A stretch of DNA of 64,000 bases. Source: Betaproteobacteria bacterium. Its GTDB lineage: Bacteria > Pseudomonadota > Gammaproteobacteria > Burkholderiales > Thiobacillaceae. The stretch covers positions 1 to 64,000 of the forward strand of contig JACRNB010000011.1 of NCBI GenBank assembly GCA_016219425.1, read 5' to 3'. Positions 58,277 to 61,888 of the stretch are shown here, piece after piece. Each line of letters starts with the position of its first letter. The first letter of the stretch is position 1. The notes beneath the pieces are model-generated. The model searched no databases. It was not told the origin of the DNA and worked only from the letters and a program-made list of their open reading frames with translations. The translations under genes were made by a program, and so were the position numbers.

Positions 58277-58344
58277 GTAGGAGCCCGGCTGTGCCGGGCG
58301 ATGCCTTTGCGAGGGTGGATCGCCCGGCACAGCCGGGCTCCTAC
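58277..58344. repeat. REP-like repeat pair, outward orientation
   Basis: GTAGGAGCCCGGCTGTGCCG... (58277-58302) and its exact reverse complement (58319-58344) have 26-base perfect arms around a 16-base spacer. The right arm equals the left arm at 51695-51720 base for base. Its edge provides the TAG stop of sufR (58341-58343). It sits inside the suf operon between sufR and sufB. Confidence 0.93.
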
Positions 58345-58799
58345 ACGGGTGCGGCCTGGCGTTTCACGTTGACGCGGGCAACCGGGATGGCGCGCGTCAT
58401 CGGCGCGGACAGGTCGGCCAGGCTCACCGCCTCCAGCGCCACCTGCACCGTGCGACTGATGAGGCGCCAGTTGCCGCGCGTGGCGCAGGCCGCTTCCAGT
58501 TCGCATGCGCCGGCGCCGAGAGCGCATTCGGTCAGGGCCACCGGGCCTTCGATGGCCGCGATGATGTCCGCCACCGAGATGGTCCTGGCGGCGCGCGCCA
58601 GGCTGTAGCCGCCCCCCACGCCGCGCGCGCCGACCACCAGCCCGGCGCGCGCCAGCCGTTTCAGCAGCGCGGCGACCGTGGGCGCGGGCAGGTCCAGTTC
58701 CTGCGCAAGCTGCGGCGCACTCACCTGGCGTTCGGGGGATCGCGCCAGATGCGCCATCAGTACGGCGGCGTAATCAGTCAGTCTGGCAATTCGCAACAT
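58341..58799 (-). CDS. sufR: Rrf2-family SUF regulator (SufR/IscR-like)
   Basis: A 152-residue winged-helix protein. [19 protein letters not shown] at the N-terminus and [22 protein letters not shown] (residues about 38-59) make the DNA-binding part; three cysteines in [14 protein letters not shown] (about 92-105) fit the cluster-binding loop. It belongs to the gamma/betaproteobacterial SUF-type Rrf2 regulators. It is expected to repress the operon it heads; a matching operator lies at 58818-58842. The last codons run into the REP-like repeat. Confidence 0.92.
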
Positions 58800-58817
58800 A
58801 GGGCCTCCGCGGTTGCA

Positions 58818-58842
58818 ATATAGGACCGATACAGTCCTTGAT
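58818..58842. promoter_or_regulatory. IscR/SufR-type operator
   Basis: ATATAGGACCGATACAGTCC (58818-58837) plus TTGAT has the length and core (GAC-Y-R-N3-Y-AGTC) of a type 1 IscR site, with the inverted GGAC..GTCC. On the minus strand TATATT (58817-58822) could be the -10 box of sufR, so binding would block transcription. Confidence 0.68.
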
Positions 58843-58997
58843 GGTTCAACAAGTACGCCACTTATGTGCAGATTTGCGGTTTTTTTCCTGGCCGTAACGG
58901 GGGTCTGGAAAAAAATCTGGATATACCCGAGTAATTCACTAGACTATTAGCCTGACAGCGGGAATTCGTTCCTCCCTCGTAACAGGAGCTTGTCGCC
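58843..58997. promoter_or_regulatory. Divergent sufR-dsrA intergenic region
   Basis: The rest of the 198-base gap is AT-richer than its surroundings. A TAGACT (58939-58944 region) could be the -10 box for dsrA. Poly-T (about 58878-58884) and GGAAAAAAATC (about 58907-58917) are unexplained. AACAGGAGC 12-20 bases before the dsrA ATG is the ribosome binding site. No copy of the 61.15-kb promoter element is found here. Confidence 0.45.
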
Positions 58998-60329
58998 ATG
59001 AACAACACACTGCCGGACACCCCTTTGCTCGATCAACTCGAATCCGGGCCGTGGCCCTCGTTTGTCACCGGCCTGAAACGCCTGGCGCAGGACAACCCGA
59101 TGATGGTCGGGCTGCTCGGCCAACTGGAGACCTCGTATCGCACCAGAACGGGCTACTGGAAGGGCGGGACCGTGGGCGTGGTGGGCTACGGCGGCGGCAT
59201 CATCCCGCGCTTCACCGAGTTGAAGGATGCAAAAGGCGTCGCCCTGTTCCCCGAGGCGGCGGAGTTCCACACCCTGCGCGTACAGCCGCCGGCGGGCATG
59301 CACTACACCTCCGACCTGCTGCGCAAACTGGCGGATACCTGGGTGGAATCGGGCGGTTCGGGGCTGATCGCGTTCCACGGTCAGTCCGGCGACATCATGT
59401 TCCAGGGCATCCGTAGCGAGAACGTGCAGAAGGCCTTCGACGGCCTCAATGCCATGGGCTTCGACCTGGGTGGCGCGGGGCCGGCCCTGCGCACCTCGAT
59501 GTCGTGCGTGGGCGCGGCGCGTTGCGAGATGTCGTGCTACGACGAGGCGCGCGCGCTGCGTACCGTGATCAACCGCAACATCGACGACATGCACCGCCCT
59601 TCCCTGCCCTACAAGTTCAAGTTCAAGTTCTCCGGCTGCCCGAACGACTGCGTCAACGCCATCCAGCGTTCCGATATGGCCACCATCGGCATCTGGCGCG
59701 ACAACATCCGCAGCGACGAGAAGCTTTCCCGCGAGTGGTTCGCCGCCCATGGCATGACGGACGCCATCAACATGGTGGTCAACCTGTGCCCCACCCATGC
59801 CATCCAGTTGCGTGAGCGGGATGCCGCCGCGCCGGGCGAGGGCGTCACCCGCGTGATCCTCTCGGACCAGCACGCCCTGGAGATCGACAACCACAACTGC
59901 GTGCGCTGCATGCACTGCCTGAATGTGATGCCGGGCGCGCTGCTGCCGGGCCTGGACAAGGGCGTGACGGTGCTGATCGGCGGCAAAGGGGTGCTGAAGA
60001 TCGGCGCCTCCATGGGCACGATGATCATCCCGTTCATGAAGCTCGATTCCGACGAGGATTTCGAGAAGCTGAACGATCTGGCGCGCAGCGTGCTCGATTT
60101 CTTCGCCGAGAACGCACTGGAACACGAACGCACCGGCGAGATGATCGAGCGTATCGGCCTGGTGAACTTCCTCGAAGGCATTGGCCTGGAAGTGGACCCG
60201 AACATGATCATCCACCCCCGCACCAACCCCTATGTGCGCACCGATACCTGGGACGAGGAGGCCGAAAGGTGGTTCGCACGCAAGGCCGAGGCGCATGCCG
60301 CCGGCGGTCGCTTGGCCCAGGCGGCGTGA
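58998..60329 (+). CDS. dsrA: Dissimilatory sulfite reductase alpha subunit-like protein, without DsrB
   Basis: A 443-residue DsrA, full length. The N-terminus LLDQLESGPWPSFVTGLKRL (residues about 10-29) and TGYWKGGTVGVVGYGGGIIP (about 50-69) are classic. The siroheme-[4Fe-4S] ligands are Cys170, Cys176 (CVGAARC), Cys214 and Cys218 (CPNDC); the ferredoxin domain has Cys264 (CPTHAI) and Cys301, 304, 307 (CVRCMHC). In sulfur oxidisers the DsrAB enzyme releases sulfite from DsrC trisulfide. DsrA normally works as an alpha2beta2 complex with DsrB, encoded next to it; here no dsrB is present. AGGAG precedes the ATG. Confidence 0.92.
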   Translation: MNNTLPDTPLLDQLESGPWPSFVTGLKRLAQDNPMMVGLLGQLETSYRTRTGYWKGGTVGVVGYGGGIIPRFTELKDAKGVALFPEAAEFHTLRVQPPAGMHYTSDLLRKLADTWVESGGSGLIAFHGQSGDIMFQGIRSENVQKAFDGLNAMGFDLGGAGPALRTSMSCVGAARCEMSCYDEARALRTVINRNIDDMHRPSLPYKFKFKFSGCPNDCVNAIQRSDMATIGIWRDNIRSDEKLSREWFAAHGMTDAINMVVNLCPTHAIQLRERDAAAPGEGVTRVILSDQHALEIDNHNCVRCMHCLNVMPGALLPGLDKGVTVLIGGKGVLKIGASMGTMIIPFMKLDSDEDFEKLNDLARSVLDFFAENALEHERTGEMIERIGLVNFLEGIGLEVDPNMIIHPRTNPYVRTDTWDEEAERWFARKAEAHAAGGRLAQAA

Positions 60330-60367
60330 ACCCGCCTGTTCATCCCTTAACGAAAAGGATCGAGATC

Positions 60368-60775
60368 ATGACCAACCTTCATATCGAATTTTCCGGCCCG
60401 CCCCTGAATTACCAGCGCGCCAGCCAGCTCGCGCGCGAGGCGGCAATGGCCGGGCCGATGCGGGAACCGACCATCATGTCCTGGCACCACCGCGACGCCA
60501 CGATGCCGTACTACGACGGCGCCAACCCCGAAACCTGGTGGGCGAAATACGGCGAGGGCAACGGCGGTCGCCTGGAAGTGAGCGTCGGCGACGATTTCCG
60601 CTTTGTGATGATGGATACGCGCGCCTTCGACCGCGTCGGCGAGATTCCACTACGCAACCTGCGGGACGGAGTGGGCCATCAGTACCTGTGCTGGACGCCC
60701 ATGCTGGCAGGCTCCACCACCCCGAACATGATGGCCTGCAACCCTCTGGGCGAATGGATGGCGGATCAGTTCTGA
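60368..60775 (+). CDS. Unknown 135-residue protein in the dsrA operon
   Basis: A soluble protein without signal peptide or membrane helix. Notable segments are MSWHHRDATMPYYDGANPET (residues about 37-56), WWAKYGEGNGG, VGDDFRFVMMDTRAFDRVGE (about 74-93) and YLCWTPMLAGSTTPNMMACN (about 106-125) with two cysteines. It bears no resemblance to DsrB, which would be about 350 residues with CX5C and CX3C motifs, nor to DsrE/F/H/L/M/K. AAGGA precedes ATG 60368; it lies 38 bases after dsrA and 26 before the DsrC-like gene, so it is surely in the operon. Rich in Trp, Met and His; a dsr accessory role is inference. Confidence 0.75.
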   Translation: MTNLHIEFSGPPLNYQRASQLAREAAMAGPMREPTIMSWHHRDATMPYYDGANPETWWAKYGEGNGGRLEVSVGDDFRFVMMDTRAFDRVGEIPLRNLRDGVGHQYLCWTPMLAGSTTPNMMACNPLGEWMADQF

Positions 60776-60801
60776 CCGCCTGACCACAAAGGAGACGAAC
60801 C

Positions 60802-61122
60802 ATGACGAGCACCCCCAGCCTTGCCCTGCCGTCTTTCGACCCGGACGGCTTCATGCGGGAAATGGAGCACTGGAACGAGGAGACCGCGCGGCGCATCGCC
60901 AGCGAAGACGGCCTGGGCGACCTGGACGAACGGCAGATCACCCTGGTGCGCCAGCTTCGGACCAGTTATCAGCGCCTGGGCGCGCTGCCCGCCTGGACCC
61001 ACGTCTGCCATCTGGCCGGCTTCGGCCCGGATTGCATGACGCGGCTGTTTCCCGATGCGCGCGAGGCCTGGCGCATTGCCGGTCTGCCCAACCCTGGGGA
61101 GGAGGCCAAGGCCTACTTGTAA
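60802..61122 (+). CDS. DsrC/TusE-family protein lacking both C-terminal cysteines (RspA-like)
   Basis: A 106-residue DsrC-fold protein: SFDPDGFMREMEHWNEETAR (residues about 10-29), ITLVRQLRTSYQRLGALPAW, then LFPDAREAWRIAGLPNPGEE near the C-terminus. In DsrC the last part reads ..ACKIAGLPKPTGCV, with two redox cysteines that carry the trisulfide. Here the first is Trp and the second is lost in a GEEAKAYL tail. Family members without these cysteines have been named RspA and considered regulatory. It cannot act as a sulfur carrier in the known way. AAGGAG lies before the ATG; it ends the dsrA operon. Confidence 0.85.
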   Translation: MTSTPSLALPSFDPDGFMREMEHWNEETARRIASEDGLGDLDERQITLVRQLRTSYQRLGALPAWTHVCHLAGFGPDCMTRLFPDAREAWRIAGLPNPGEEAKAYL

Positions 61123-61152
61123 CCCGGCAGGGCCGCAGGCGCGACGATCCGT

Positions 61153-61224
61153 CTAAAGATCCCTTTAGGGCGGCTAAATGACCCGGACATTTTCCCTGCG
61201 GCGCGTTCCACCTAGTCTTTGCAG
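61153..61224 (+). promoter_or_regulatory. Conserved palindrome-promoter element, copy B
   Basis: The perfect palindrome CTAAAG-ATC-CCTTTAG region (61153-61168), half-site GCTAAATG (61174-61181), -35-like TTTTCC (61190-61195) and -10-like TAGTCT (61213-61218) lie upstream of the ATG at 61272. It aligns without gaps to 51769-51840; distances from the -10 to the start codons are also alike (53 and 49 bases). Confidence 0.7.
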
Positions 61225-61271
61225 CAACACCTTTCGAACCCTGGGCGAAAGACATAAAGGAGTGAGACATC

Positions 61272-61556
61272 ATGTTGGCAGCTGAAACGAAACCGTCCCG
61301 TTTGGGGCCTGCGTCCCTGGAACTTTCCGGGCTGGCCGTAGTGGCCCTGTCGGACCAAGGCCGGGGCTACGGCCTGTACCGGGTCAAACGGGTGGAAGCC
61401 AGAACCATGGTGCTGGGTCATGGGGCCATCTCCTTCCCGGTCGGCATGCACCTGGACGTCGAGGCCTTCAAGTGCCTGGCGCCCAGCGCCGCCGATTTCC
61501 GTCAACGCACCACCGTCGTCGAGAACAGCCGCGACGGCATCCGGCTGGTGTGGTGA
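61272..61556 (+). CDS. Unknown 94-residue protein, PilZ-like by weak resemblance
   Basis: A small soluble protein with alternating hydrophobic strands: LELSGLAVVALSD (residues about 17-29), GYGLYRVKRVEART, ISFPVGMHLDVEAF (about 53-66) and VVENSRDGIRLVW at the end. The strand pattern with FPVGMHLDVE and the final G-I-R-L resembles a PilZ barrel, but the RxxxR cyclic di-GMP motif is missing, so the call is weak. AAAGGAG lies before ATG 61272. It shares its promoter element with a diguanylate cyclase gene. The stop overlaps the next start (TGATG). Confidence 0.6.
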   Translation: MLAAETKPSRLGPASLELSGLAVVALSDQGRGYGLYRVKRVEARTMVLGHGAISFPVGMHLDVEAFKCLAPSAADFRQRTTVVENSRDGIRLVW

Positions 61557-61888
61557 TGTGTACCCGCAGGGGTGCAGGGCTTGGGGCGGCGTTGGCCGTC
61601 CTGTGCGTCGCCCTGACGCCGCTCGCTTCGTTCGCGGATACGGACTCGGTTGCAGGACAGATCGCTTGCCCGGCCCTGCTGATGGAAGGGGAGTGCCGCG
61701 CCTACCTGGCAGAACTGCGCCGCGCCCGGACCAAGGCGGAGATGCGGTTGTTTGAGGATCGGTACGCGGCCTTGCTGAAAGAACGTTTCAGCCTGTGCCC
61801 GCACTCCGCCGCTCTGAAGACGGTGAAAAATGCGGACGACCGCCCGCAACCGCAACGGGTATTCCCGGGGAAAAAGATCAGCATGTAG
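61556..61888 (+). CDS. Small exported protein, 110 residues
   Basis: A signal peptide covers residues about 1-27 (RRGAGLGAALAVLCVALTPL then ASFADTD). The mature part is helical and charged with IACPALLMEGECRAYLAELR (two cysteines) and SLCPHSAALKTV (a third). No family is recognised. It is co-transcribed with the preceding gene and followed by a terminator, so the two form a two-gene operon under the shared promoter element. Confidence 0.68.
   Translation: MCTRRGAGLGAALAVLCVALTPLASFADTDSVAGQIACPALLMEGECRAYLAELRRARTKAEMRLFEDRYAALLKERFSLCPHSAALKTVKNADDRPQPQRVFPGKKISM

Follow-up and report, generated by a model that had tools for sequence, protein, structure and literature searches.

Copies of dsrA, the gene for the alpha subunit of dissimilatory sulfite reductase, are known to occur without linkage to dsrB. 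Thiobacillus denitrificans carries two such unlinked copies (Loy et al., 2009, PMC2702494, citing Beller, 2006); these extra DsrA proteins are 78–83% identical and occur beside a complete dsrAB, and the accessible part of that account, which terms them unexpected, gives no operator, partner genes or distribution for them. Phages are also known to carry dsrA and dsrC without dsrB, and five phage DsrC proteins have neither cysteine motif, according to the accessible part of a survey of such genes (Kieft et al., 2021, PMC8190135). Here, we describe an orphan dsrA in a member of the Thiobacillaceae (Betaproteobacteria bacterium, assembly GCA_016219425.1), located within the first 64,000 nucleotides of contig JACRNB010000011.1, hereafter the window. 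Like the T. denitrificans copies, it encodes an extra DsrA unlinked to dsrB in a genome with a complete dsrAB, and like the phage-borne genes (e.g., of Lauvirus lau218) it is accompanied by a dsrC-type gene; it differs from the latter in its host context and in that the phage DsrA lineage is distant. We favor, as a moderately probable reading, that the locus encodes an alternative alpha subunit (DsrA') of reverse dissimilatory sulfite reductase that would be controlled by IscR and assemble with the canonical DsrB. A spare alpha subunit is already known as an oddity; what is new is its spread, its repeated origin, a putative operator and a link to the DUF5619 family.

The orphan dsrA (58998–60329, plus strand) encodes a 443-residue protein that scores 493.1 bits against TIGR02064 (cut-off 392.9) and whose best solved relative is Archaeoglobus DsrA (PDB 3mm5_A, E = 2e-98). 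As a preliminary description of this DNA had stated, all eight cluster cysteines are present (positions 170, 176, 214, 218, 264, 301, 304, and 307); we take them to be the ligands of two [4Fe-4S] clusters. The same description held that the DsrB partner is not encoded. No dsrB lies on either side of the window dsrA, but the search of the genome that it called for recovered a canonical dsrAB at C11:152222–154659, on the same contig and 93 kb from the orphan, and this dsrB is the only one seen in the genome. Among the three roles that had been proposed, an alpha variant using a DsrB encoded elsewhere therefore fits best, given the presence of a canonical dsrB and the retention of conserved residues; we found no support for a regulatory or sensory version, or for a homomeric siroheme enzyme.

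Unlinked dsrA genes are widespread among relatives. Among 117 Thiobacillaceae genomes, DsrA is matched in 107 and DsrB in 99, and there are at least 150 DsrA matches overall. Among the matches listed, 129 are near-full-length (more than 90% of the length covered), namely 89 linked to dsrB and 40 unlinked, the latter spread over 35 genomes; at least one of the 40 (G088:C179), which starts where its contig ends, is probably a canonical copy that has been split. dsrB was seen in 32 of these 35 genomes, as one locus or pieces of one, and the three genomes in which none was seen (G132, G104, and G127) are 76–82% complete. A genome without an orphan (G137) shows a second partial dsrB, and dsrB is thus not strictly single in the family. 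We fetched 39 of the 40 unlinked copies and found no dsrB around any of these 39 loci (window included) within approximately 6 kb on each side, where the contig allows; six duplicate loci (L053, L054, L057, L058, L063, and L066) were counted once. The neighbors of the orphans vary case by case in the 27 loci laid out. One orphan (L108, G010:C25) is flanked by NifV-like and NifS-like genes and thereby also has a cluster-assembly neighborhood (gene names by eye). In an order-wide draw of 399 genomes, DsrA was found in 87, of which 75 lie outside the Thiobacillaceae. Among the latter, second DsrA copies were seen in f15, a further family of this order, in eight of its 12 genomes with DsrA; seven of these copies are unlinked to dsrB and the eighth is truncated by the end of its contig.

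Phylogenetic analysis, which the preliminary description had suggested, placed the orphans in clades of their own beside the canonical copies. The FastTree input comprised 38 unlinked, 75 linked (of 89) and six phage DsrA sequences, with a locus of broken frame (L170) left out. The orphans fell into clade I (genera g1, to which the window genome belongs, and g2; 10 copies; support 0.866), clade II (genus g6; 21 copies; 0.999), and clade III (g6; six copies; 1.0), with the misframed L166 standing apart from all three. IQ-TREE retained clade I (92) and joined clades II and III weakly (57), though these are separate in the FastTree tree; the orphan dsrA genes of the Thiobacillaceae thus form two or three clades in the reconstructed trees. 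In both trees, the window DsrA stands at the base of clade I (0.866 and 92), but it falls outside this clade when f15 sequences are added (0.912), so that its position differs among the trees. Orphans of f15 are interspersed among f15 canonical copies, with one same-genome pair being sisters, which points to repeated duplication or gene conversion. Recent local deletion of a linked dsrB, raised beforehand as a possible refutation, is rejected, since the orphan clades are separate and coexist with canonical dsrAB. The genome that we take to be T. denitrificans strain ATCC 25259 (G080) differs from the window in having a single copy in each of clades II and III and in lacking the trio.

The orphan proteins are also well conserved. 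With L166 and a truncated copy (L178) left out from this comparison onward, the eight cluster cysteines are invariant in all 36 aligned orphans, and of the 266 alignment columns in which 75 canonical DsrA sequences reach at least 95% conservation, clades I, II, and III differ at only eight, seven, and nine, respectively, some of which fall in the first three residues. Judged from sequence, DsrA' is intact, and nearly all residues conserved in canonical DsrA are retained. Such residues would be expected to be lost if the protein were freed from DsrB, and their retention favors continued pairing of this alpha subunit with DsrB. Codon-model omega values for clades I, II, and III (0.058, 0.053, and 0.032) lie close to those of canonical dsrA from the same genomes (0.059, 0.049, and 0.046), and pairwise medians are similar or slightly higher in the orphans (0.166, 0.138, and 0.081 vs. 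0.138, 0.105, and 0.082). By these estimates, the orphan dsrA is under purifying selection.

The promoter of the orphan contains a candidate regulatory site. Alignment of the promoters of the window dsrA and two relatives revealed a common AT-rich element. The sequence ATACCCGAGTAATTCACTAGACTAT (58923–58947, strand not assigned), 50 nucleotides ahead of the dsrA start, matches the E. coli IscR type-1 consensus at 22 of 25 positions, and nowhere else in the window does the match exceed 18. With a matrix derived from iscR promoters, the same site has the top score in the window (25.5; runner-up 14.4). Across the genome, no more than three mismatches are found at four sites, compared to one site for a reversed control pattern; they concern the orphan dsrA, a second dsrC, clpX, and one hairpin-like sequence (gene names by eye). 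The site at the second dsrC (G000:C16:228423–228447) has two mismatches and directly precedes the gene, with a LysR-type open reading frame in divergent orientation. The genome's own iscR is preceded by a like site, found by an independent search, and an Rrf2 gene at C15:166326, ahead of an IscS-type reading frame (named by eye), encodes the motif CX5CX5CX2H, presumably the IscR cluster-ligand pattern. The orphan promoter, with its dyad and TAGACT/TAGAGT, resembles this iscR promoter; the same combination, with the hexamer after the dyad or overlapping its end, is also found before the second dsrC and the clade II orphans. Within the operator, TAGACT (58940–58945, plus strand) may thus serve as a −10 element, and the dyad would lie at the core promoter as it does in IscR type-1 promoters (iscR and glutaredoxin).

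Comparative searches extended this result. In 15 other genomes, the pattern gave four to seven forward sites each, and the reversed control gave none, except for two in one genome. Among the sites fetched, one precedes iscR in 12 of the 15 genomes, and others precede genes resembling those for monothiol glutaredoxin, cysE, clpX, DsrC-type proteins, DUF5619 proteins and orphan dsrA (names by eye). In clade I and II orphans, the dyad lies approximately 27–75 nucleotides ahead of the start; it was significant (p < 0.05) against dinucleotide shuffles in nine of 10 clade I, 19 of 20 clade II and none of six clade III promoters. Within 150 nucleotides of the start, the iscR-derived matrix passed 36 of 44 orphan dsrA genes (clade I, 10/10; clade II, 20/20; clade III, 0/6; f15, 6/8) compared to none of 82 canonical dsrA genes (Fisher p = 4e-24, not corrected for relatedness). 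The count omits L357 (gene cut) and upstream pieces shorter than 100 nucleotides, and does not count L166 and L170, whose loci contain sites matching at 21 and 20 of 25 positions, respectively; it includes L360 as an orphan although the contig ends within the gene. One f15 copy (L350) fails only because its site (21/25 at −130) extends past 150 nucleotides.

No dsrA was included in building the matrix. Six sites, two of them not iscR-proximal, were used to compare orphan and canonical genes, and five proximal sites were used for the DUF5619, DsrC and far-upstream analyses. All but one (L293) of the 14 iscR loci behind the matrix were fetched for holding a pattern match, so that by themselves they provide no test of the motif. 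Background was low, at four of 63,976 window positions (the orphan's own site among them) and 33 of 902 neighboring genes, some of which lie across a shared intergenic gap from an orphan or DUF5619 gene. An operator upstream of the orphan dsrA is thus well supported by sequence, and we infer that IscR may regulate this gene.

Under the favored reading, [2Fe-2S]-IscR would fall under oxidative or iron stress, or when cluster demand is high, and the orphan operon would then be switched on. DsrA' would pair with the canonical DsrB, replacing or remodeling the alpha half of DsrAB, and the DUF5619 and DsrC-like proteins would be made in the same response; subunit swapping by DsrA' is the step that we infer from the conserved residues. 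We found no explanation for unlinked dsrA in the literature searched, and the accessible parts of four further papers do not treat it; the shared operator provides one that is testable in cultured Thiobacillus strains. No literature joining IscR, dissimilatory sulfite reductase and regulon was found; for a looser search, this covers the matches listed. If the reading is true, one subunit of an enzyme central to the sulfur cycle is exchangeable and coupled to iron-sulfur status, and dsrA genes unpaired with dsrB must be taken into account when dsrA is counted or used for phylogeny in metagenomes. The reading may also be relevant to the presence in phages of dsrA without dsrB.

A broader version of this proposal is possible, though we hold it only tentatively. 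In the Thiobacillaceae and f15, an IscR-controlled second Dsr set (DsrA, DUF5619, and DsrC paralogues, with no DsrB of its own) may have evolved more than once; under iron-sulfur stress, the alpha subunit would be exchanged and a DsrC mimic added, coupling sulfur oxidation to cluster status. The window would then represent the one genome seen with the set as a single operon.

Several observations weigh against the favored reading. All six clade III orphans are without the operator, and the operator and orphan counts lack phylogenetic independence. Only 35 of 117 genomes have an orphan, so its function is dispensable. Of all orphan loci fetched, the window alone has the linked trio, and just two of 28 homologues of the DsrC-like gene have an operator that passes the matrix. 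In addition, canonical operons have a related dyad farther upstream: of the 23 canonical loci with at least 300 nucleotides of upstream sequence, 17 pass the matrix and 21 reach 18 of 25, compared to six of 150 random 600-nucleotide window pieces passing the matrix. Nearly all of these dyads lie 208–249 nucleotides before dsrA; the other 52 canonical loci have 13–286 nucleotides upstream, mostly too short for that distance, and one of them passes. IscR-like control is thus perhaps not specific to the orphan. It may be that IscR-type control reaches the whole dsr system in several genera, with the orphan differing only by its core-promoter site, or that the canonical dyad, though similar to an IscR site, belongs to another Rrf2 regulator. 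The canonical dyad has the conserved form ATCTGAC-N7-GTCAGGTAT (e.g., L049, L059, and L071), and in the window genome it stands on C11 at −210 and fails the matrix (2.2).

Genes for a DUF5619 protein of 135 residues (60368–60775, plus strand) and a DsrC-like protein of 106 residues (60802–61122, plus strand) follow dsrA at gaps of 38 and 26 nucleotides, with good AGGAG-like ribosome-binding sites in the trio, in agreement with the initial view that the three genes form a real unit. That this make-up has not been described holds for the trio in the literature searched, but not for unlinked dsrA, which has been published (PMC2702494, as far as that source was accessible). A conserved trio is rejected, since no other orphan locus fetched has all three genes, a finding that the preliminary description had itself named as a refutation. 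Nor is co-occurrence of the three genes by genome tight: in g1 and g2, read by eye, DUF5619 is present in seven of 10 clade I genomes and a DsrC-like relative in five of 10, two of these distant. A functional link between the genes nonetheless survives through the IscR-like operator shared by separate dsrA and DUF5619 copies.

It had been thought that the 135-residue protein belongs to no recognized family, yet it matches PF18505 (DUF5619) with 66.1 bits against a cut-off of 25. Relatives occur in 64 of 117 Thiobacillaceae genomes, distant matches included, and stand in varied contexts. A dyad of at least 19 of 25 lies 70–89 nucleotides upstream in 36 of 47 distinct orthologues, and 36 of 47 pass the iscR-derived matrix. 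In f15, a DUF5619 relative (L364, G050:C35) has an IscR-like dyad (21/25) 165 nucleotides upstream. The predicted fold of the window protein (mean predicted local distance difference test score, 72.8) resembles AF1514 of Archaeoglobus fulgidus (PDB 3c0f), a sulfate reducer; both fall in the Pfam family DUF5619, and the window protein is 50 residues longer. Foldseek gave a probability of 1.00 with an E value of 0.014, above the usual line of 0.001, and template modeling scores of 0.68 by target and 0.45 by query. A sequence profile of DUF5619 against the PDB gave chance matches only and did not find 3c0f. Literature searches for DUF5619 by name found none, and those for AF1514 itself gave matches unrelated by title.

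The DsrC-like protein matches PF04358 (51.4 bits; cut-off 24.9) and scores below the cut-off of TIGR03342 (TusE/DsrC/DsvC; 38.8 vs. 53.5 bits); it is one of six DsrC-family matches in the genome. Both C-terminal redox cysteines are absent, with W and GEEAKAYL in their place (C-terminus AWRIAGLPNPGEEAKAYL), as in the aligned homologues, and the protein therefore cannot carry the DsrC trisulfide. The description of it as cysteine-less stands for these two positions but not for the whole protein, as all 28 aligned homologues retain Cys69 and 26 of the 28 retain Cys78. These cysteines and a largely fixed NPGEEAKAYL end set this subfamily apart within the DsrC/TusE/RspA family, with which it shares the DsrC Pfam domain and the absence of both C-terminal cysteines; RspA is reportedly a name used by Venceslau in 2014 for family members without redox cysteines. 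The subfamily has the shared C-terminus W-R-x-A-G-L-P-N-P-G-x-E and occurs in 72 of 117 Thiobacillaceae genomes. A second subtype (L238 and L239, in G069 and G015, both with a clade I orphan) retains the first conserved cysteine but not the second. The likeliest role of the DsrC-like protein would be docking or regulation on DsrAB.

One alternative is that the three genes are grouped only by a common response to IscR, with DsrA' being the sole Dsr part and the DUF5619 and DsrC-like proteins not acting on it. We consider this unlikely. In its favor, the three genes stand apart in relatives: orphan dsrA has unrelated neighbors, DUF5619 contexts vary, and in nine g6 loci the DsrC-like gene follows one of mutY type. 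IscR-like sites are moreover found ahead of clpX, cysE-like and ankyrin-type genes (names by eye). It sits less well with the recurrence of the dsrA and DsrC-like pair in one relative, G017, where the DsrC-like gene follows the orphan by 34 nucleotides, and with L350, where the two are approximately 480 nucleotides apart and convergent.

That DsrA' is a dosage copy, equal in function to canonical DsrA and supplying extra alpha subunit when cluster damage inactivates it, appears distinctly unlikely. The mean identity of orphan and canonical DsrA (~76–79%) and the near absence of class-specific change at conserved sites would suit it, but distinct orphan clades persist beside canonical copies and dsrB has not been duplicated along with dsrA in the 35 genomes. 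Still less probable is a homomeric siroheme protein or sensor independent of DsrB. The lack of dsrB in the stretches fetched around orphan copies agrees with this idea, but the catalytic siroheme of DsrAB belongs to DsrB, and the retained residues should include DsrB contacts. A phage origin, although dsrA and dsrC without dsrB follow the same gene content logic (Kieft et al., 2021, PMC8190135, in its accessible part; Lauvirus lau218), is hardly credible and is rejected, given that DsrA from viral contigs is 56–59% identical in 12 of 13 loci (the thirteenth being a 133-residue fragment at 71%), that the trees place the six viral DsrA sequences used apart from every bacterial copy and that suf-type genes adjoin the window dsrA.

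With respect to the surroundings of the locus, the first gene of the divergent suf cluster (58341–58799, minus strand) encodes a SUF-type Rrf2-family regulator (TIGR02944, 148.8 bits; cut-off 110.7), after which suf-type reading frames continue on the minus strand (suf names by eye). Searches of the orphan dsrA against plasmids gave no match, and a sigma-70 scan of 58300–61600 found no promoter and one terminator-like site within dsrA. Downstream of the trio, the window contains a 94-residue open reading frame of no recognized family (61272–61556), which is also found near the orphan dsrA of G017 (L105:4071–4355).

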